Of a stretch of DNA of 23,531 nucleotides, positions 578 through 23,531 are shown piece by piece (position 1 is the stretch's first letter; each line of letters opens with the position of its first letter). The notes beneath the pieces are model-generated. The model made no database searches, was not told the origin of the DNA, and saw only the letters and a list, made by a program, of their open reading frames with translations. A program made the translations under genes and the position numbers. Source of the stretch: a virus; the IMG/VR virus record IMGVR_UViG_3300036781_000209, positions 1-23,531 of that record; one strand, given 5' to 3'.

Positions 578-1510
578 ATGCTGACTCTTGTCGAAGCCGC
601 GAAGCTGTCGGCCACCAACGGTGAGACGAAGCGCGCCGCCGTCATCGCCATGTTCGCCCAGGCCAGCCAGTGGCTCATGTCGCTGGCGTTCAAGGACATT
701 CCGGGCAACGCCTACGCGTACAATCGCGAAGGCACGCTGCCGGGCGTCGCGTTCCGCGGCGTGAATGAGGCCTACACCGAGTCGACCGGCGTGATCAATC
801 CGCTCGTCGAAGCGCTGCGCATCGCTGGCGGCGATCTCGATGTCGATACCGCGATCCTCAAAACGCAGGGCGAAGGCGTTCGCGCAACGCACGAAGCGAT
901 GAAGGTGAAGGCGCTCGCCGCCGAATTCACGCGCGTGCTGATCAAGGGCGACTCAACGTCCAACCCGCGCGAGCCAGATGGCCTTCAGGTGCGCATCACG
1001 GGCTCGCAGCTCGTTGAGAACGGCGCGTCATCCGGTGGTGACGTGCTGTCGCTCGCACAGCTCGACGCAGCGATCGATCAGTGTGCCAACCCGACGGCCA
1101 TCTGGCTGCCGAAGCTGATGCGTCGTCGCCTCACCCAGGCGTCGCGCAACACGTCGACGGGCGGATTCCTCGTGCAGACGAAGGACGACTTCGGTCGTCC
1201 GCTGCAGACCTACAACGGCCTGCCGCTGCTCACCGCCTATCCGGACAACGGCGGCACCGAGCCGATCACCTACACCGAAGTCGGGAGCGGTGGTGGCACG
1301 GCGCAGTCGGCGTCGCTGTACGTCGTCGGCGTCGGCGACGGCTACTTCTCGGGCATCCAGAACGGCGTGATGGATGTGCGCGATCTCGGGGAGCTCCAGA
1401 CCACGCCGGCCAAGCGCACGCGCGTCGAATGGCTCGCGAGCATCTGCGTCGAGCATGGCCGTTCGGTCGTGCGTCTGCGCGGCATCAAGGACGGAGCGGT
1501 CGTCGCGTAA
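578..1510 (+). CDS. Phage major capsid protein (HK97-like fold family)
   Basis: This 310-residue protein is probably the main shell subunit of the phage head. Its N-terminal part (residues about 1-70) has the pattern seen in a widespread phage major capsid family: L-T-L-V-E-A-A-K-L, then G-N-A-Y-A-Y-N-R-E, then L-P-G-V-A-F-R-G-V-N-E and Y-T-E-S-T-G. The length of about 310 residues is normal for the family, which usually lacks a cleaved prohead delta domain. A good Shine-Dalgarno sequence (aggag, 565-569) lies 8 bases before the ATG, consistent with high expression. It sits between the scaffold-like gene and a cement-like gene, the usual order. The exact subfamily was not determined. Confidence 0.88.
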   Translation: MLTLVEAAKLSATNGETKRAAVIAMFAQASQWLMSLAFKDIPGNAYAYNREGTLPGVAFRGVNEAYTESTGVINPLVEALRIAGGDLDVDTAILKTQGEGVRATHEAMKVKALAAEFTRVLIKGDSTSNPREPDGLQVRITGSQLVENGASSGGDVLSLAQLDAAIDQCANPTAIWLPKLMRRRLTQASRNTSTGGFLVQTKDDFGRPLQTYNGLPLLTAYPDNGGTEPITYTEVGSGGGTAQSASLYVVGVGDGYFSGIQNGVMDVRDLGELQTTPAKRTRVEWLASICVEHGRSVVRLRGIKDGAVVA

Positions 1511-14889: not shown

Positions 14890-15360
14890 ATGGCCACCGC
14901 GAAAATTGGCTACGGCACCTTTGCGACGCTCGCGCTCGCGCTCGCGAGCGTCGCAAACGCGGCCGGCTGTCAGTCCGATGCCGTCGACAATACGACGACA
15001 CTCGCACTCGACTACGCACTGCGCATTCCCAAGACGCAATTGACGGGCGCCGGCGCCGGAACGCTCGATCTCTACCTCGCGCGGCTCATCACGAGCGGCC
15101 CGACCTATGTCGATGGCGCGTCGGGCACATCTGGCTCATTCACCGCTGCGAATCTGAAGAACGCGAAGCTCATCGATCGCGTGCAGATGAACGGCGCCAC
15201 GTCCGTCAGTTGGGGATGTGATTCGCTACGCCAGGCGATCGGCATCGAGATCCCCAATCTGTGGACGATCATCGCCATCAACAACGGCGGCGCGGCGATG
15301 AACGCCACCAGCACGAATCACCTCCTCGAGGTCATGGCGCTCTCGAAGACGGCCGCGTAG
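14890..15360 (+). CDS. Phage structural protein (small beta-rich virion protein)
   Basis: The 156-residue protein follows the previous gene by 2 bases and has a Shine-Dalgarno-like gaggtga just before its ATG. The pattern near the start (I-G-Y-G-T-F-A-T-L-A-L-A-L-A-S-V-A-N-A) followed by A-V-D-N-T-T-T-L-A-L-D-Y-A resembles a phage structural family in which an alternating strand and the A-V-D-N-T-T motif are typical. The Ala/Leu-rich start looks like a signal peptide but probably is not, because that family has no signal. A very strong 15-bp hairpin (14920-14957) lies inside its first codons. Function is structural by context. Confidence 0.65.
   Translation: MATAKIGYGTFATLALALASVANAAGCQSDAVDNTTTLALDYALRIPKTQLTGAGAGTLDLYLARLITSGPTYVDGASGTSGSFTAANLKNAKLIDRVQMNGATSVSWGCDSLRQAIGIEIPNLWTIIAINNGGAAMNATSTNHLLEVMALSKTAA
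14920..14957 (+). other. Perfect 15-bp inverted repeat inside the 14890 gene
   Basis: The arm tttgcgacgctcgcg (14920-14934) is perfectly complementary to cgcgagcgtcgcaaa (14943-14957), with the 8-base loop ctcgcgct. Transcribed, it would be a very stable hairpin beginning about 30 bases after the start codon. It is not followed by T residues. It could pause ribosomes or polymerase, or protect mRNA. Confidence 0.75.
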
Positions 15361-15371
15361 CGCGGCGCCGC

Positions 15372-17150
15372 GTGTCCATCTTCGTCGCGACGGCGGGATC
15401 CTCGCTGTGCCAGGTGACCGTGCCCAACATCGCGGCCGGTCACTCGTTCACGTTTCTCGAATACATCAAGCACGCCGCGAAGGACGGCGGCACAGGTCCG
15501 GCGCTCGCGCCATCGAGCGCCAGTCCGAACTTCCAGCTCGGCAACATTAACGGGAACCCGGGCTTCGGCTACCAGGTCAGCATCCCCCGCGCAACAACCG
15601 CGTCATCGTATTTCACGACGGACGACGTCGGGGGGCCGATCCAGCTCGGCAAGTGGATCTGCCGCATTCTCACCTACGATGAAACGAACGGCGTTCGTGA
15701 GTACTGGGGCACGATGACGGAGAAGATGCGCGAGTCGGCCTACAATGGCTCGCGCACCGTCGGCTCTGGCAACACGACAGCGGCGACGTCGCCCATTCTG
15801 AACTGGGGCGATCTCAACCAGTTCAACAACCAGGCGCGCACCGGCTCGCACGGCGCGTTCGCGTACTGCCACGGCAGCGTGCTCTCGCTCGCCGAGATGG
15901 ATCGCTGGCGGCGCAATCCGTGGTACGTGCCGACTGGATGCGTCGTGCTCTGCATTCCGAAGGGCATCGAAGCGAAACCGTTCGACTATTCGCCCTCGCG
16001 GCGCAGCATCACCTACTACACCGCGCCGACGCTCACCGGCGCGGTGCGCACGGGCGATCCGTTGCCGATCCTCCAAGCGCCGGCGCTCGAGGAGGAAGAC
16101 GACCTGCTTGCCGGATGGGTCGCCGGCGGCGGTAGCGGCGGCACCGCGTACACGATCAGCCTCGTCGGCAACATCACGCCGGCCGCGGCGCTCGGCCGTG
16201 CGATCGCGCTGATCCGGAGCGGCGCGATCGCACCGACGGGCACACCGACGAAAGCAGTCGCGACGACGAAGTCGGGCGCGATCACTGCGTCCGGCGCACT
16301 CGCCAAGACGGCCGGCAAGCCACTCCGCGGCTCCGTGACGCCAACGAGTGGGCTCGGCCGACTCGTCGCCAAGGTGCTGGCCGGTTCGTCGACGCCAACG
16401 GGCGCGGCGGCGCGACGCACCGCAAAGAACATGAGCGGCGCGATCGCGAGTTCGGGCGCGCTGCCGAAGCAAACCGCGAAGCCGTTCGCTGGCTCCATCA
16501 CGCCGAGCGGCGCCGTCGCCATCATCCGCGCGATCCTGATTGTGCTCGGCGGCAGCATCGGCCTCTCTGGGAGCCTGACGCGATCGACGCTGAAGTCGCT
16601 GCTCGGATCTGTGACGCCGACGAGCACCCTGAAGCGCGGCGTCGCGCGCACGTTCGTCGGCGCGCTCGTGAGCTCTGGCGCGATCGCGAAGCAAACGATC
16701 AAGACCTTCGTCGGAGCAATCGCCTCGAGCGGCGCGCTCACGCTTCAACCGGTCCGCACGTTCTTCATCACGCTCGGCGGATCGATCGGGCTGAGTGGCT
16801 CGCTGCGTCGACAGATCGGCAAATCGTTGCTCGGCGCGATCGCGAGCTCGGGCACGGTCCGCAAATCGGTGAGCTCGCATTTCGCCGGCCAGATCATCGC
16901 CGTCGGCATCGTGCGCAAAGCTGTCTCGAGCACGCTGCGCGGCGCGCTGCTGCTCGTCGGCGCCGTGACGTTGCTGCCGATCATTGCGGGCGCGCTGCTG
17001 GGTATTCGCGCCGTACGTCGTTGGCTCACGCCCGACAATCGTGCACGATCGCTCGGCCCGCTCAATCTCTCGCGCTCGCTCGAGCCTGATGATCGTGCGC
17101 GGTCGATCGATCCAGACGACCGCGGCGACTCTCTCTCACCGGATCTCTAA
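15372..17150 (+). CDS. LamG-like tail-region protein with about 15 Gly/Ser-rich 18-residue repeats
   Basis: The GTG at 15372 is the first sensible start; the upstream open frame overlaps the preceding gene and reads as a shadow. The 592-residue product has a LamG/concanavalin-like N-terminal domain (residues about 1-205), shown by F-T-F-L-E-Y-I-K-H, the G-K-W-I-C-R-I-L-T-Y-D segment, and H-G-S-V-L-S-L-A-E-M-D-R-W-R-R-N-P. Residues about 264-540 are about 15 copies of an 18-residue repeat, roughly [LF]-x-G-[SA]-[IV]-x-x-[ST]-G-[AS]-[LV]-x-[KR]. The C-terminus (552-592) has short R-[SA]-R-S-[LI]-x-P-D-[DN] repeats. It is probably a fibre or surface adhesin of the virion. Two repeats carry an extra hydrophobic insertion. 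Confidence 0.65.
   Translation: MSIFVATAGSSLCQVTVPNIAAGHSFTFLEYIKHAAKDGGTGPALAPSSASPNFQLGNINGNPGFGYQVSIPRATTASSYFTTDDVGGPIQLGKWICRILTYDETNGVREYWGTMTEKMRESAYNGSRTVGSGNTTAATSPILNWGDLNQFNNQARTGSHGAFAYCHGSVLSLAEMDRWRRNPWYVPTGCVVLCIPKGIEAKPFDYSPSRRSITYYTAPTLTGAVRTGDPLPILQAPALEEEDDLLAGWVAGGGSGGTAYTISLVGNITPAAALGRAIALIRSGAIAPTGTPTKAVATTKSGAITASGALAKTAGKPLRGSVTPTSGLGRLVAKVLAGSSTPTGAAARRTAKNMSGAIASSGALPKQTAKPFAGSITPSGAVAIIRAILIVLGGSIGLSGSLTRSTLKSLLGSVTPTSTLKRGVARTFVGALVSSGAIAKQTIKTFVGAIASSGALTLQPVRTFFITLGGSIGLSGSLRRQIGKSLLGAIASSGTVRKSVSSHFAGQIIAVGIVRKAVSSTLRGALLLVGAVTLLPIIAGALLGIRAVRRWLTPDNRARSLGPLNLSRSLEPDDRARSIDPDDRGDSLSPDL
16161..16990 (+). repeat. Array of about 15 degenerate 54-bp units (18-residue repeats)
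   Basis: Repeat units such as S-G-A-I-T-A-S-G-A-L-A-K, F-A-G-S-I-T-P-S-G-A-V and F-V-G-A-I-A-S-S-G-A-L follow one another with a period of about 18 residues; a few units have 20-22. Each holds a G-[SA]-[IV] strand, a small S/T-G turn and a basic end. Copy identity at DNA level is modest, but short runs such as ggcgcgatcgcgag recur. The pattern suggests a repetitive beta-structure. Confidence 0.75.
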
Positions 17151-17152
17151 TC

Positions 17153-17509
17153 ATGGCTGCCCCGAATACCAGCGAGCCGCGAAAGACAGGCGATACGCTC
17201 ATCCTCTCCGGCACACTCGACGAGAGCACGCCGCTCGATCACGGCGATTGGGACGGCGCCGTCGCGAAGATCAACATCGCCGACGCGGATTCGCTGGCGC
17301 TCGTCGTCGATCACGGCGTCGTCACGCTCGACCTGACGCCGCTCGACGCGGATCCGGCGGGCCCGGTGAAGTACCGGCATCAAGGCACCATGCCCGACGA
17401 AGGATCCTACCTGTACGAAATCGAAGTCACGTTCACGGATACCACCGTGCTGACGTGGCCGGACGACGGCTCGAAGAACAAGCTCGTCGTCAAACCTGCC
17501 CTCGGATAG
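17153..17509 (+). CDS. Small phage protein with BppU-like/Ig-like beta domain
   Basis: The 118-residue acidic protein starts 2 bases after the previous gene. It follows a pattern seen in small phage baseplate and tail-accessory proteins: K-T-G-D-T-L-I-L-S-G-T-L, then A-K-I-N-I-A-D, then V-V-T-L-D-L-T-P-L, then D-E-G-S-Y-L-Y-E-I-E-V-T-F and T-W-P-D-D-G-S-K-N-K-L-V-V. That is the layout of the BppU N-terminal (DUF2479-like) domain, an all-beta fold used to attach tail parts. No signal or membrane segment is visible. It is the last gene of the + strand structural run. Confidence 0.65.
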   Translation: MAAPNTSEPRKTGDTLILSGTLDESTPLDHGDWDGAVAKINIADADSLALVVDHGVVTLDLTPLDADPAGPVKYRHQGTMPDEGSYLYEIEVTFTDTTVLTWPDDGSKNKLVVKPALG

Positions 17510-17522
17510 CACGCTGTACCGC

Positions 17523-17539
17523 GCTCGGCGGCGCCGAGC
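17523..17539 (+). other. 7-bp hairpin in the leader of the DUF1996 gene
   Basis: gctcggc (17523-17529) pairs perfectly with gccgagc (17533-17539) over a 3-base loop. It lies between the last structural gene (stop 17509) and the secreted protein gene (ATG 17558). No T-run follows, so termination is unlikely to be strong; it may lower read-through or shape the leader. Confidence 0.4.
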
Positions 17540-17557
17540 ACCCTTGCACCTCGAGCC

Positions 17558-19132
17558 ATGACGAAACGCTTCATTGCGGTCATTGCGTTGGTCCTCGCCG
17601 CACTTGCTCCACCGATTCACGCGCAGACGAAAGGGACGGCTGTTCAGTCACCGGTCTGCGATTCAACGAGCATTCTGCTCACGAAAGCCATTCCGTTCAC
17701 TGGCGTGCAGAAGGCGACAATCGCGAAGTCGTGCTTCGCGTTCAGCAGTGGCCTCGATGCGTGGTTCACGGCCAACGCCGATTCGTTGCTGAAGCTGAGC
17801 AACGCGCAGCTCGTCGCACTGATCGTGCACGGGACGACGCCAAAGCCGCCCGCCGTGCCGATCGATACGGTCGTTCCGCCACCGCCCGTGAAGGACACGA
17901 CGAAGATTCCCCCGCGCGACACCACCAAAGCGCCGCCCGCCGACACGACGACGCCTCCGCCGGTCGCGACGACGTGGACGTTCTGTACGAATGCGGGCGC
18001 GATGTGCGACTACTTCGGACTGCGTGTCGTGCAGCTGTGCGACGTCACGGAGACGAAGTGCGTGCAGCAGACCACGTATCACGAAGTGCCGTGTGCCGGC
18101 TACGGCTTCAACAATCAGTATCCGAGCTCGGGTCCTCTGCACTGTCGCTATGGGCCGCCGATCACTGAGTCGCTCGTCGCGACGGTCATGGGACCGATCA
18201 CGTCACCGTACATCACGGTCTTTAAAGGCTCGCCCGGCTCGAGCACGGCCGATGTGCAGAACGGCGGCGGCAACGGCAGCTACACCGACGGGACAGGATC
18301 CTTCCGCACAACGTGCTCGCTCGCGCACATGGCGTTCGATGATCCGATCGTCTTTCCAGGCCAGCCCGGCAAGTCGCACCTGCACATGTTCTTCGGCAAC
18401 ACGGCGATCAGCGCCTACACGGATTCGTCGACGATCGTGACGACGGGTAACTCAACGTGTCGCGGCGGCATCCTCAATCGCACGGCGTACTGGACACCCG
18501 CGATGGTCGACGGCGCCGGCAACGTCGTGATGCCGGACGAGGCCACGATCTACTACAAGACCGGCTATAACATGCCGCCGGCGAAAACGCAGGTGTTGCC
18601 GACGGGCCTGCGCATGATCGCCGGCGATAAGAACGCGACCGGCGCACAGGTCGCACCGGGCCCGCTGCCGATCGCGGCGTGGGACTGCTTGATGCCGGAC
18701 CTGACCGCAGTGAAGGACAAGGGCGGCAAGGTCATTCAGTCGGGCTATACGATTCCCGGCGCGTGTCCGGCCGGCGCGATGGTGCGGCTCACGATCTTCT
18801 TCCCGAGCTGCTGGAACGGCAAGGATCTCGATTCGCCGGACCATAAGTCGCACATGGCCTATCCGAACTTCGTCGCCGGCACATGCGCGCAGGGCTGGGT
18901 GCAGCTGCCGCAGATCTCCGAGCACTTCGACTTTCCGGTGCTGAAGGGGGCGAACCCGGCGACGTGGCATCTGTCGAGCGACGGCGATCTCACGAAGCCC
19001 GGCATGAGCGCACACGCCGATTGGATGATGGGCTGGGATGCCACAACGATGAAGAGCATCGTCGAGAACTGTCTGCAGAAGGCGGTCGACTGTGGCGTCG
19101 GCGGAATCGGCGCGAACAAGTCGTTGTTTTAG
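17558..19132 (+). CDS. Secreted DUF1996 protein with Cys-rich N-terminal module
   Basis: The 524-residue protein has a clear signal peptide (residues 1-22, M-T-K-R-F-I-A-V-I-A-L-V..., likely cleaved after I-H-A). A Pro/Thr-rich linker (about 93-135) leads to a Cys-rich module (about 138-200) starting W-T-F-C-T-N-A-G-A-M-C, similar to domains attached to secreted carbohydrate-active proteins. Residues about 249-500 are a strong DUF1996 match: D-D-P-I-V-F-P-G-Q-P-G-K-S-H-L-H, F-F-G-N-T, C-W-N-G-K-D-L-D-S-P-D-H-K-S-H-M, and H-A-D-W-M-M-G-W-D. The function of DUF1996 is not established. It lies between phage structural genes and the minus-strand cassette, and ends just before a terminator. Confidence 0.85.
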   Translation: MTKRFIAVIALVLAALAPPIHAQTKGTAVQSPVCDSTSILLTKAIPFTGVQKATIAKSCFAFSSGLDAWFTANADSLLKLSNAQLVALIVHGTTPKPPAVPIDTVVPPPPVKDTTKIPPRDTTKAPPADTTTPPPVATTWTFCTNAGAMCDYFGLRVVQLCDVTETKCVQQTTYHEVPCAGYGFNNQYPSSGPLHCRYGPPITESLVATVMGPITSPYITVFKGSPGSSTADVQNGGGNGSYTDGTGSFRTTCSLAHMAFDDPIVFPGQPGKSHLHMFFGNTAISAYTDSSTIVTTGNSTCRGGILNRTAYWTPAMVDGAGNVVMPDEATIYYKTGYNMPPAKTQVLPTGLRMIAGDKNATGAQVAPGPLPIAAWDCLMPDLTAVKDKGGKVIQSGYTIPGACPAGAMVRLTIFFPSCWNGKDLDSPDHKSHMAYPNFVAGTCAQGWVQLPQISEHFDFPVLKGANPATWHLSSDGDLTKPGMSAHADWMMGWDATTMKSIVENCLQKAVDCGVGGIGANKSLF

Positions 19133-19173
19133 TCATCCTGAGCGAAACGAAAAGGCCCTATTCCGCACGTAGT

Positions 19174-19210
19174 AAAGCCGCCCCCGTCTCACGACACGGG
19201 GCGGCTTTTC
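19174..19210 (+). terminator. Rho-independent terminator after the DUF1996 gene
   Basis: aaagccgccccc-gt (19174-19187) pairs with acggggcggctttt (19196-19209), with one bulged C and the loop ctcacgac, and TTTT at its end on the + strand. It sits 42 bases after the DUF1996 stop. The complementary strand also ends in a short T-run, so it may also stop the minus-strand cassette, which ends at 19244. Confidence 0.85.
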
Positions 19211-19243
19211 ATTCATCCGGACGTCTCGCGCGGCCACCAGGTC

Positions 19244-19417
19244 TCATCTCCTCGCAAGCACTAGAATCGCGACGAAGACCACGATAGCGCAGGCAATCGC
19301 CGCTCCGGCGGTGAAGGCCCAACGCGAGCGGCCACGAGGCACTCTGGGCGCGTTGCAGAACGGACAGCGGATCCCCGCGTCGGTGATCAGCTCATTACAC
19401 TGATCGCATCGGATCAT
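19244..19417 (-). CDS. Zinc-ribbon single-pass membrane protein
   Basis: The 57-residue protein reads M-I-R-C-D-Q-C-N-E-L at its start, with a zinc-ribbon formed by C-D-Q-C and C-P-F-C about 12 residues apart, followed by a basic stretch (R-V-P-R-G-R-S-R) and one membrane segment (about residues 34-54, A-I-A-C-A-I-V-V-F-V-A-I-L-V-L). It would sit in the membrane with the zinc-ribbon cytoplasmic by the positive-inside rule. The ATG at 19417 is preferred over an upstream in-frame start at 19459 that overlaps the previous gene. It is the last gene of the minus-strand cassette. No specific function is recognised. Confidence 0.7.
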   Translation of the reverse strand: MIRCDQCNELITDAGIRCPFCNAPRVPRGRSRWAFTAGAAIACAIVVFVAILVLARR

Positions 19418-19431
19418 GGTCGAAACAAGCG

Positions 19432-19635
19432 TTAATGTTGGGCCGCCGGTCCGCACCATTCGTATCGCTTCATCTCACGATTGAGCTCATACCGCCCGCC
19501 CCTGAGTTCGATGTAATGCGGCAAGAGCACGTCGTCGAGCTGATCGGCGCGCACCGGGGTCTTACGCAGCGGGAGAATCAACGCCTCGCCGTCCTTCGGT
19601 CCGCCGTGGAAGCGAATGAATTCGTCAGAGTCCAT
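19432..19635 (-). CDS. Small unknown protein with G-G-P-K-D-G motif
   Basis: The 67-residue protein starts at the ATG overlapping the end of the upstream gene by 11 bases, and contains F-I-R-F-H-G-G-P-K-D-G-E-A-L near its start, followed by a Y-E-L-N-R-E-M-K-R-Y-E-W-C-G ending. Small proteins with a F-x-G-G-P-x-D-G start and a Y-x-x-Y/W end are common in phages and high-GC bacteria but have no known function. A longer open frame to 19755 lies within the upstream gene and looks like a shadow. Confidence 0.65.
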   Translation of the reverse strand: MDSDEFIRFHGGPKDGEALILPLRKTPVRADQLDDVLLPHYIELRGGRYELNREMKRYEWCGPAAQH

Positions 19636-20074
19636 AGTGAACCATCGCCGCGCGAGCGAGCTCGCGGAAGAAGTTGGGCGTCTCGCCGCCGTCGACTGAC
19701 AGCGGGCTCCGGAAGAATTGCCCGTCGCTCTCCACGGTCCAGAAGTCGACGCCATCGGTGCGTTCGACCCGGAAGGTGAAGTGCCGGCCCTCGTGCTCTA
19801 GCTGGACAATGTGGTTCGTGTAGTTCGGATCGTCCGCGGTCCAGAGGACATTCCGAGCGAGCTGCTCGAGCAGGACCTCAAGCGACGCGCCCCGTTCCCT
19901 CTCGCGTGTGTACAAGGGTTGATAGCGTCGTGCGCCGCCGTCGGTCGGCACGAAGATGCGCTGTTCACCGGTGCCGAGATCCATGCCGACGAGCTGGCCG
20001 TCCTCGAGGCGAAAGTCGTAGACCTCCCACTCGCGGCCGTTCGCGTCAACGATCACGTGCGTCGGGCGCTTCAT
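19625..20074 (-). CDS. Unknown protein with G-R-E-W-x-V-Y-D-F-R start
   Basis: The ATG at 20074 overlaps the previous stop (TGATG on the minus strand), fixing the start; the open frame upstream to 20341 overlaps the neighbouring gene. The 149-residue product begins M-K-R-P-T-H-V-I-V-D-A-N-G-R-E-W-E-V-Y-D-F-R, a pattern I associate with small hypothetical proteins of Gemmatimonadota, then R-I-F-V-P-T-D-G-G. The middle has a helical stretch (L-E-V-L-L-E-Q-L-A-R-N-V-L-W). The second half contains H-F-T-F-R-V-E-R-T-D-G-V-D-F-W-T-V-E-S-D-G and ends in a helix F-F-R-E-L-A-R-A-A. No function is assigned. Confidence 0.65.
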   Translation of the reverse strand: MKRPTHVIVDANGREWEVYDFRLEDGQLVGMDLGTGEQRIFVPTDGGARRYQPLYTRERERGASLEVLLEQLARNVLWTADDPNYTNHIVQLEHEGRHFTFRVERTDGVDFWTVESDGQFFRSPLSVDGGETPNFFRELARAAMVHYGL

Positions 20075-20349
20075 CAGTTGCTGGCCCGCTCGAGCGGATC
20101 GTTCCCTCTCATCTCGAGATACAACAGCACCTGGAGCTCCGCCTCCGTCAGCGTATCCAGGTGATGCGCCGCCGCTTCCGCGGCTGCTTGCTTGTTCGCG
20201 TGTTGCCCGGGCAAGGCGATCGTGATCTTCGTCGACTTCGTCGGATCCGCTGCATAGGGAATTGAGACGACATAGCTCGATGCCGCTCTCGTCCACTTCA
20301 CTTCCCAGAGCATACGAAACTGCATTGTCCGGATCTCGCAATTCTTCAT
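20074..20349 (-). CDS. Unknown 91-residue protein in minus-strand cassette
   Basis: The start at 20349 forms an ATGA overlap with the lipoprotein stop, and the end overlaps the next gene by one base, so it is translationally coupled on both sides. The product has a beta-type first half (M-L-W-E-V-K-W-T-R, Y-V-V-S-I-P-Y and K-I-T-I-A-L-P-G) and a helical second half (N-K-Q-A-A-A-E-A-A-A-H-H-L-D-T-L, then E-L-Q-V-L-L-Y-L-E-M). No membrane segment is visible. I do not recognise the family. Confidence 0.65.
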   Translation of the reverse strand: MKNCEIRTMQFRMLWEVKWTRAASSYVVSIPYAADPTKSTKITIALPGQHANKQAAAEAAAHHLDTLTEAELQVLLYLEMRGNDPLERASN

Positions 20350-20747
20350 TGCACCTCGCGAAGCGTTATCGGCTCACTTACAAAGACGCCTCCGTTGATC
20401 GTGCCGTTGAGTGTGGACTGCGATCGCGTTCCGGTGACGGTAAGAATTGGTGCTGCAGCATGCGTTACGAACGATGTTCCTTTCGAGAATGTGATGCTTG
20501 CCGGGCCGTCTGGCGCCGACACGATGCTCACGCTGACATAGACCGTCGAATCGATCCCTCCAACAATGACCGCAGCGGTCCCGCTGCCGCCGGCTCCGAC
20601 AAGCTGAACGACCGACGCCCTGTGGCCACTCGTCGCCGGGATCTGGGCTTCCCAGATGCCAACAAGTCCAACGTTACGCGGTTCTGTCGATCCTCCGCAG
20701 GCCGTCACAGCTGCAGCAATCGGTAAAATCAATCGCGTCAATCGCAT
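20346..20747 (-). CDS. Small lipoprotein, first gene of the minus-strand cassette
   Basis: The ATG at 20747 is preceded by ggag (20757-20760), a good Shine-Dalgarno site. The product of 133 residues starts M-R-L-T-R-L-I-L-P-I-A-A-A-V and has the lipobox V-T-A-C (Cys at residue 17), followed by G-G-S-T-E-P, so it should be lipid-anchored. The mature part has a beta-rich pattern (G-L-V-G-I-W-E-A-Q-I, then a long Ser/Val region, and a last G-V-F-V-S-E-P-I-T-L-R-E-V) like small bacterial lipoproteins of unknown function. Many prophages carry lipoproteins that alter the cell surface or block superinfection; that role here is inference. Confidence 0.75.
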   Translation of the reverse strand: MRLTRLILPIAAAVTACGGSTEPRNVGLVGIWEAQIPATSGHRASVVQLVGAGGSGTAAVIVGGIDSTVYVSVSIVSAPDGPASITFSKGTSFVTHAAAPILTVTGTRSQSTLNGTINGGVFVSEPITLREVQ

Positions 20748-20921
20748 ACGATGTTCTCCACATGGTTTCCACATCACAACCGTTGTTTTTCGTCGATCAA
20801 CGATCTCTAACAACCCCTTGCGCGATTCGGGATACGTTCGGTAACGTAACAGCGCTCCCCCGAGCCGCCTTCGCCTAGCAAGAGTCGCCCGGGGCTACCC
20901 CGTTCGAGGCAATGAGCACGA
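20748..20921. promoter_or_regulatory. Divergent intergenic region with a 16-bp dyad
   Basis: This 174-base gap lies between the minus-strand lipoprotein and the + strand gene at 20922 and must hold promoters for both. The perfect dyad tacgtt-cggt-aacgta spans 20833-20848, a plausible operator. A second small inverted repeat, cgggg-cta-ccccg, lies at 20890-20902. TTGCGC (20818-20823) followed 18 bases later by TAACGT (20842-20847) is a weak candidate + strand promoter. I see no tRNA. Confidence 0.4.
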
Positions 20922-21547: not shown

Positions 21548-21625
21548 TTATGTTATATACCTGTCGCCGAGAACAAATCGGTGATGGCGATACAAACCAC
21601 CACCTATCGGATATAACCGGTGAGT
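21548..21625. promoter_or_regulatory. Divergent promoter-operator region of the immunity switch
   Basis: The 70-odd bases between the two regulator genes are AT-richer than the surroundings. TATAAC occurs on the + strand at 21612-21617, 9 bases before ATG 21626, and on the minus strand at 21557-21552, 4 bases before GTG 21547 and 13 before ATG 21538. As -10 boxes they would put transcription starts at about 21624 and 21545. Related half-sites GTTATAT lie near both ends in opposite orientation. Clear -35 boxes are not visible, so activators or other sigma contacts may be needed. Confidence 0.5.
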
Positions 21626-21862
21626 ATGACCGCAAAGGAGCACAGGCGCAAACCTGAAACGATGGGCCGTCGGCTGGCGGCCGCGCGGACGTTGCGCGGA
21701 TTGAGTCAGGCTGAGGCAGCAGAGCAAGCCGGATTTGCGCAGCCCTATCTGTCCTTGCTTGAGAACGACAAGGCGGTCTCACCTCCGCTGAACACGGTTG
21801 CAAAACTCGCCCGGATTTACGGAGTCACGATCGACTATCTCGTGACCGGCACCGCCGCCTAA
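21626..21862 (+). CDS. XRE-type regulator (Cro position)
   Basis: The roughly 78-residue protein is almost entirely a helix-turn-helix domain (residues about 13-72): M-G-R-R-L-A-A-A-R-T-L-R-G-L-S-Q-A-E-A-A, G-F-A-Q-P-Y-L-S-L-L-E-N-D, and P-P-L-N-T-V-A-K-L-A-R-I-Y-G-V. It heads the early + strand operon, the usual place of Cro. The ATG at 21626 fits a leaderless start after TATAAC; a GTG two codons earlier (21620) would overlap the promoter region. The function as Cro is positional. Confidence 0.8.
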   Translation: MTAKEHRRKPETMGRRLAAARTLRGLSQAEAAEQAGFAQPYLSLLENDKAVSPPLNTVAKLARIYGVTIDYLVTGTAA

Positions 21863-23017: not shown

Positions 23018-23531
23018 ATGCCGAGCACCGCGAAGAAGAAGACAGCGCGCATCAAGGCGCCGAGTGCCGCAGTCGTCTCGCTCACGTACATGCTCCGCAC
23101 GTGCGAGTCGGATATGTCGGCGTACAACAACTTCAAGTGGCCGACATCAGGGAAGGTCGAATGCCCTGACTGGAATTCGCGCAAGGTGTGCGGTGGCGGA
23201 CTCCATGGCCTGTTACACGGCAAGGGCAATCAGAACTTGCTCAGCAAGGATCCTGAAGCGAAATGGCTCGTCGTCGCCGTCGACACGAGCGACGTCGTCG
23301 TGATCGATGACGAGAAAGTGAAGGTCCCCCGCGGCAACGTCGTCTTCTGCGGAGCTGGATCGGAAGCGATCGCCAAGCTCCTCGAGCTCGACCAGGACGC
23401 TGAGGCGTCGACCCTTCCCTTCTATCAGGCGTCGGCGAGCGGCTATCAGGGACAGGCGTCGGCGAGCGGCTATCAGGGACAGGCGTCGGCGAGCGGCGAT
23501 TACGGACAGGCGTCGGCGAGCGGCTATCAGG
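23018..23531 (+). CDS. Early protein with C-G-G-G-L-H-G domain and 9-residue A-S-A-S-G repeats (3' truncated)
   Basis: The frame starts at ATG 23018, two bases after the previous stop, and is open to the window end, so the gene is cut. Residues about 20-120 contain M-L-R-T-C-E-S-D-M, W-P-T-S-G-K-V-E-C-P-D-W-N, C-G-G-G-L-H-G-L-L-H-G, A-K-W-L-V-V-A-V-D-T-S-D and P-R-G-N-V-V-F-C-G-A-G, a compact domain resembling DUF7666-like proteins often followed by A-S/T-A-S/T-G repeats. From residue 137 the repeat A-S-A-S-G-Y-Q-G-Q begins and continues past the edge. The function is unknown; the repeat part probably folds as an extended beta-structure. Confidence 0.7.
   Translation, partial: MPSTAKKKTARIKAPSAAVVSLTYMLRTCESDMSAYNNFKWPTSGKVECPDWNSRKVCGGGLHGLLHGKGNQNLLSKDPEAKWLVVAVDTSDVVVIDDEKVKVPRGNVVFCGAGSEAIAKLLELDQDAEASTLPFYQASASGYQGQASASGYQGQASASGDYGQASASGYQ
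23426..23531 (+). repeat. Tandem 27-bp (9-residue) repeats at the window edge
   Basis: Units begin at 23426, 23453, 23480 and 23507, exactly 27 bases apart. Each encodes Q-A-S-A-S-G-Y-Q-G except the third, which has D-Y-G in place of Y-Q-G. The first two units are identical in DNA, and the third differs only in its seventh and eighth codons. They are in frame with the gene at 23018, so this is a coding repeat, not a CRISPR. Confidence 0.9.

Follow-up and report, generated by a model that had tools for sequence, protein, structure and literature searches.

A compact, probable five-gene accessory operon between the late genes and the immunity switch of a siphovirus probably infecting Gemmatimonadota

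A siphovirus fragment carries, between its late genes and its immunity switch, a compact minus-strand cassette of five small genes. The window, meaning the whole stretch of DNA that we analysed, is the entire IMG/VR record of 23,531 bases (Table 1). Our tentative reading is that of a moron, a lysogenic accessory operon carried by a temperate Gemmatimonadota siphovirus, which combines an exclusion-type envelope lipoprotein with small cytoplasmic partners derived from mobile elements. That the cassette is an accessory operon is well supported, and an anti-phage function is our suggestion. It apparently adds a new case to a known kind of accessory operon, and it includes p149, which belongs to a Gemmatimonadota domain family that seems to be undescribed. 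To our knowledge, phages infecting Gemmatimonadota are almost undescribed, and the cassette is a tangible candidate among them for a locus of lysogenic conversion or exclusion.

Table 1. Main features of the 23,531-base window
Feature	Position	Strand	Remarks
Head scaffolding fragment and major head protein	578-1510	+	
Tail protein, 845 aa	9363-11900	+	
DUF1996 secreted-type protein	17558-19132	+	Last late gene before the cassette
Inverted repeat, terminator-like hairpin	19174-19208	both	Between the convergent late genes and cassette
Zinc-ribbon/transmembrane protein, 57 aa	19244-19417	-	CxxC-x11-CxxC N-terminus, one hydrophobic C-terminal helix
p67	19432-19635	-	FHGGPKDG motif
p149	19625-20074	-	N domain (1-75), C domain (87-148)
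p91	20074-20349	-	Small cytoplasmic protein; GAGG upstream
Lipoprotein, 133 aa	20346-20747	-	Signal peptide and lipobox; RBS-like GGAG upstream
ORF, 101 aa	20922-21227	+	Divergent from lipoprotein gene; weak coding signal, gene doubtful
Phage repressor-like protein, 107 aa	21224-21547	-	phrog_8, E 4e-6
Cro/C1-type HTH regulator	21620-21862	+	Divergent to repressor

The plus strand further encodes a connector, a tail chaperone, a 1026-aa gene in the tape-measure position and tail genes up to position 17150. A 40%-identical copy of the DUF1996 protein occurs in the uncultured siphovirus MW202423.1. On the 3' side of the Cro-like gene follow small plus-strand genes, the last of which is cut by the contig end; it encodes a DUF7666 protein (23018-23531) with tandem 27-nt repeats (QASASGYQG). 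The repressor/Cro pair is present in the window. Because no integrase or attachment repeat, and likewise no tRNA/att site, was identified within the 23.5-kb fragment, the prophage status is one that we infer.

The host probably belongs to the Gemmatimonadota, as indicated by three observations. The best relative of the 845-aa tail protein in the genome collection is found in a Gemmatimonadetes MAG (L015; 38% identity, full length), the remaining relatives being from Proteobacteria with far lower scores. Furthermore, the p149 relatives found are in Gemmatimonadota genomes, and the ACGGSTEP leader of the lipoprotein resembles the leaders of other lipoproteins in these phages.

The five-gene layout described in an earlier note on this DNA, and its placement between late genes and immunity switch, are borne out by our analyses. 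A same-strand run of five ORFs with the span of the cassette appeared in none of 400 dinucleotide shuffles of 19133-20921, and is thus beyond chance. For all five genes the assigned frame was the best of the three. A codon-based caller, unprompted, called the lipoprotein gene (with a shorter start), p91, p149 and p67, and p149 also has protein-level homologues. The zinc-ribbon gene, which was uncalled and has a weak coding signal, is the least certain of the five; it is recognized by the sequence features in Table 1, and database searches gave sub-threshold zinc-ribbon matches only.

The genes had also been described as coupled. This is the case for the lipoprotein/p91 (ATGA), p91/p149 (TGATG) and p149/p67 (11-nt overlap) junctions, but coupling is weaker for p67 and the zinc-ribbon gene because of a 14-nt gap, or of a 28-nt overlap should translation start at the upstream ATG (19459). 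As claimed, the cassette is oriented against the late genes, but it shares its strand with the repressor. The GC3 of the lipoprotein gene is 0.61 and that of the regulators is likewise lower than in the structural genes (0.80-0.86).

The cassette is a separate unit, convergent with the late genes, neighbouring the repressor and sharing with the late genes a two-way terminator-like hairpin, as would suit a moron. The hairpin is formed by a perfect 11-bp inverted repeat (AAAGCCGCCCC...GGGGCGGCTTT), with folding energies on the two strands of -24.7 and -27.8 kcal/mol (z -6.5 and -5.7) and a T-run on the plus side only. Leftward transcription of the cassette would begin ahead of the lipoprotein gene and stop at this hairpin. 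No sigma-70-like promoter was found for the cassette, and Gemmatimonadota promoters may differ from this type.

The envelope members anticipated in the earlier note are a lipoprotein and a protein that is probably membrane-bound. In the lipoprotein (MRLTRLILPIAAAVTAC/GGSTEP), residues 14-17 (VTAC) fit the lipobox definition [LVI][ASTVI][GAS]C taken from PMC11893012, and the mature protein has a beta-rich look. It has no match in Pfam, PHROGs, NCBIfam or PADLOC, no viral relatives, no relevant PDB chain and no credible relatives in a sample of 190 Gemmatimonadota genomes, where four matches (L126-L129) were rejected as wrong frames or unrelated proteins. An AlphaFold2 model of the lipoprotein alone was unusable (pLDDT 34).

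We propose an exclusion role for the lipoprotein because of its analogy with two phage-encoded small lipoproteins. Ltp of TP-J34 is a superinfection-exclusion lipoprotein of the lysogeny module, which is expressed by the prophage and blocks DNA injection (PMC3952083). Lpp of the mEpimmI coliphages excludes phages when expressed, and is encoded within the cluster of structural genes (PMC11893012). By contrast, the cassette lipoprotein is a candidate with no detected sequence relation to either; its phage belongs to a different host phylum, and its gene stands first in an operon of five, where its partners are cytoplasmic. If the analogy holds, the cassette would be expressed in the lysogen, and the lipoprotein would be exported to the cell envelope and hinder related phages in adsorbing or in getting their DNA into the cell. 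The other four proteins (p149, p91, p67 and the zinc-ribbon membrane protein) could then be accessory factors in the cytoplasm or inner membrane, derived from mobile elements, that control the protection by the lipoprotein or contribute to it.

A wider context is provided by p149. Its C domain has one chromosomal homologue, a 70-aa ORF (L103/L140; 48% identity over 64 residues, E 6e-12) near an IS21 IstB gene. The N domain, with the pattern "W-x-VYD / R-x-FV / LExQL", shows 39% identity over 66 residues to a 101-aa ORF (L104/L143), and an alignment search added L111, L112, L114, L119, L120, L124 and L125. Across these relatives W16, D20, R39, F41 and L68 are nearly invariant; several have a weak score on their own (E 1e-3 to 1e-2), and we accepted them by eye on motif agreement. 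Seven Gemmatimonadota proteins compared with p149 (L110, L112, L114, L119, L120, L124, L125) share this pattern at 21-38% identity, but none has the C domain, and they are mostly encoded by single chromosomal genes. The N-domain relatives gave no useful match in Pfam or NCBIfam, and the family appears to be undescribed. In L112 and L125, the N domain stands behind an N-terminal part that matches response-regulator receivers (E 0.02-0.6, weak but consistent, mostly end to end). As a side observation, these chromosomal fusions (L112:1477-2112 and L125:1489-2118) might represent an unnamed signalling family.

In the AlphaFold2 model of p149 (mean pLDDT 77), each half is beta4-alpha, and the C module reaches a pLDDT of about 90. 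The model had no significant PDB or viral fold match, and no DNA-binding motif was found in p149. A PUR-alpha type fold was considered for its similar topology, and rejected as no PDB match reached E <= 0.001 (PUR matches had E 0.8-1.1, with a TM of about 0.24 for the repeat I-II pair). A profile comparison of the two halves as a sequence duplication, with only two rows each, was empty. Other p149 matches were set aside, namely a C-half match to the start of a biotin-carrier-type protein (L105), taken as chance, and six matches of alignment A3 (L113, L116, L117, L121-L123), which were reading-frame noise. The A2 alignment search (0/200) was uninformative, as the sample of genomes had probably missed the one that holds the known homologue. 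Direct searches of phages and the PDB with p149 were empty.

The two closest N-domain relatives sit in mobile or candidate-defence blocks. On contig C87 of genome G170 (L136), an ATGA overlap couples the p149-N gene to a DUF4209 gene matching PADLOC PDC-S39 (E 1e-18). DUF4209 belongs to the HEPN superfamily (RNase-type) and is present in restriction-modification-related operons (PMC3710099). On the same strand follow genes for a PARP-like protein, a further unknown protein and PD-Lambda-3_A (E 4e-24), the last separated from the rest of the block by an opposed gene. Divergent to the p149-N gene is a gene for a 113-aa protein with 38% identity over 89 residues to the phage repressor, its only detectable homologue in a whole-genome search of G170; none was found in the seven other genomes first listed with p149-family matches. 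Both this element and the cassette place a p149-type gene beside the same repressor type, with ATGA-coupled small genes, in G170 together with defence-type genes. However, the DUF4209, PARP-like and PD-Lambda-3_A genes are missing from the cassette, and the lipoprotein, p91, p67 and the C domain of p149 from the G170 element. In G214 (L143), the p149-N gene follows a DUF4062 (ThsB-like) gene and a 338-aa gene, in a block which also holds genes for an HTH protein and a D12 DNA methyltransferase. Independently of the cassette, the accessory block under the divergent repressor in G170 (L136:2419-8040) is a candidate new Gemmatimonadota defence operon. An "integrase" at the start of C87, with tyrosine-recombinase-like motifs seen by eye and without a Pfam match, was not relied on.

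The p149-N link to defence is suggestive only, because it is based on two of about eight relatives. The earlier idea of a conversion, exclusion or defence locus is partly supported by the discrete accessory operon and by p149 relatives in candidate-defence or mobile islands, in G170 adjoining a relative of the phage repressor, but none of the cassette genes matches a known defence or exclusion family. The idea of a sense-and-respond system found no footing, as nothing pointed to such a circuit. p149 leads to an unnamed domain family, in candidate-defence or mobile blocks in two genomes and beside the same repressor type in one, so that an association of immunity switches with defence cargo can be put to the test.

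Two other explanations draw on the same relatives. In the first, the cassette would serve ordinary lysogenic conversion without anti-phage action, with host-type genes (a Gemmatimonadota-style lipoprotein and chromosomal-type domains) altering the surface or stress physiology of the lysogen. The ordinary chromosomal surroundings of the N-domain relatives L137, L138, L141 and L142 would agree with this, as would the ACGGSTEP-type signal common to other lipoproteins of these phages, but the mobile or candidate-defence setting of the closest relatives would not, and we regard it as somewhat unlikely. The second would make the cassette mainly regulatory: p149, as a modulator or anti-repressor working with the 107-aa repressor, would tune the choice between lysis and lysogeny, and the other genes would be co-transcribed passengers. 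The divergent gene pair in G170 would fit, and so would the two receiver-like fusions, as expected of an output or regulatory domain. However, a lipoprotein and a membrane protein would be odd in a switch, the p149-N gene of G170 heads an operon with candidate-defence genes, and p149 has neither a DNA-binding motif nor a significant fold match; we consider a regulatory role unlikely.

The earlier note had suggested checking whether the five genes co-occur elsewhere. As a full set they were found in none of the collections searched. No cassette gene had a convincing homologue in about 100 loci from phages and prophages related to this one, and 12 whole related viral records gave no p149-family match. 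Viral-collection scans with p149, alignments A2 and A3, p67, the lipoprotein and p91 gave no relatives, these scans detecting close relatives only. None of the five proteins matched Pfam, PHROGs, NCBIfam or PADLOC. The cassette is thus sporadic and missing from the related phages searched, which is the distribution expected of a moron.

For p91, searches of phages, the viral collection and 395 Gemmatimonadota genomes were empty or spurious; a match in L107 lay within a long glycoside-hydrolase-like ORF and is therefore due to chance. p67 shares an F-x-GGPKDG start with small phage proteins carrying an FxGGPxDG motif, and weakly resembles one of them in the phage collection, the hypothetical protein ALA45422.1 of Achromobacter phage phiAxp-2 (E 0.7 only). 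It has no credible relatives in the 395 Gemmatimonadota genomes, and a plasmid search was empty. One match (L109) was antisense to a carbamate-kinase-like gene and was rejected; another (L108), with an equally weak E, was a 636-aa frame. The 101-aa ORF beside the repressor was rejected as a relative of L111, as the match spans 16 residues only.

That the set was found nowhere else, with an orphan lipoprotein, p91 and p67 and a weak coding signal in the zinc-ribbon gene, would also be expected if there were no functional unit, but only unrelated small genes on one strand or host DNA misassembled 3' of the late genes. This is improbable given the ATGA and TGATG translational overlaps, the hairpin common to cassette and late genes, and the phage-type genes on either side, including DUF7666 at the contig end and DUF1996, which is phage-borne elsewhere.

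For the moron reading we counted the beyond-chance run, the four codon-supported genes, the two-way hairpin, the lower GC3 of the lipoprotein gene and regulators, the G170 and G214 contexts, the HEPN affiliation of DUF4209, the precedents of TP-J34 and the mEpimmI phages, and an unrelated minus-strand lipoprotein gene at the corresponding boundary of a related phage (L036). Against this reading and an exclusion function we counted the lack of a known-family match, the failure to find the full set elsewhere, its orphan members, the ordinary contexts of four p149-N relatives, and that neither an integrase nor a sigma-70-like promoter was found in the fragment. A bolder version is very improbable, in which the cassette would be a new exclusion or abortive module of Gemmatimonadota phages that reaches from the envelope to the cytoplasm, with a surface lipoprotein, a zinc-ribbon membrane relay and p149 as intracellular adaptor, founder of an undescribed two-module beta4-alpha family also travelling with HEPN-type defence genes and mobile-element repressors.

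Two cases hint that the late/early boundary is a recurrent accessory niche. L036 carries an unrelated lipoprotein gene there (16920-17741, minus), and in L010 an unrelated 65-aa lipoprotein gene (15165-15362, minus), likewise beyond the late genes, directly follows the p278 homologue of L010. Another unrelated lipoprotein gene lies in the related phage L040 (9810-9989, plus). Finally, at L002 (15282-16615) a reverse-transcriptase-like gene follows an Asn-rich short ORF (NWTNASNAGAWTLNLNNVRGNSNNN) beside tail genes, an arrangement which by eye has the look of a diversity-generating retroelement.
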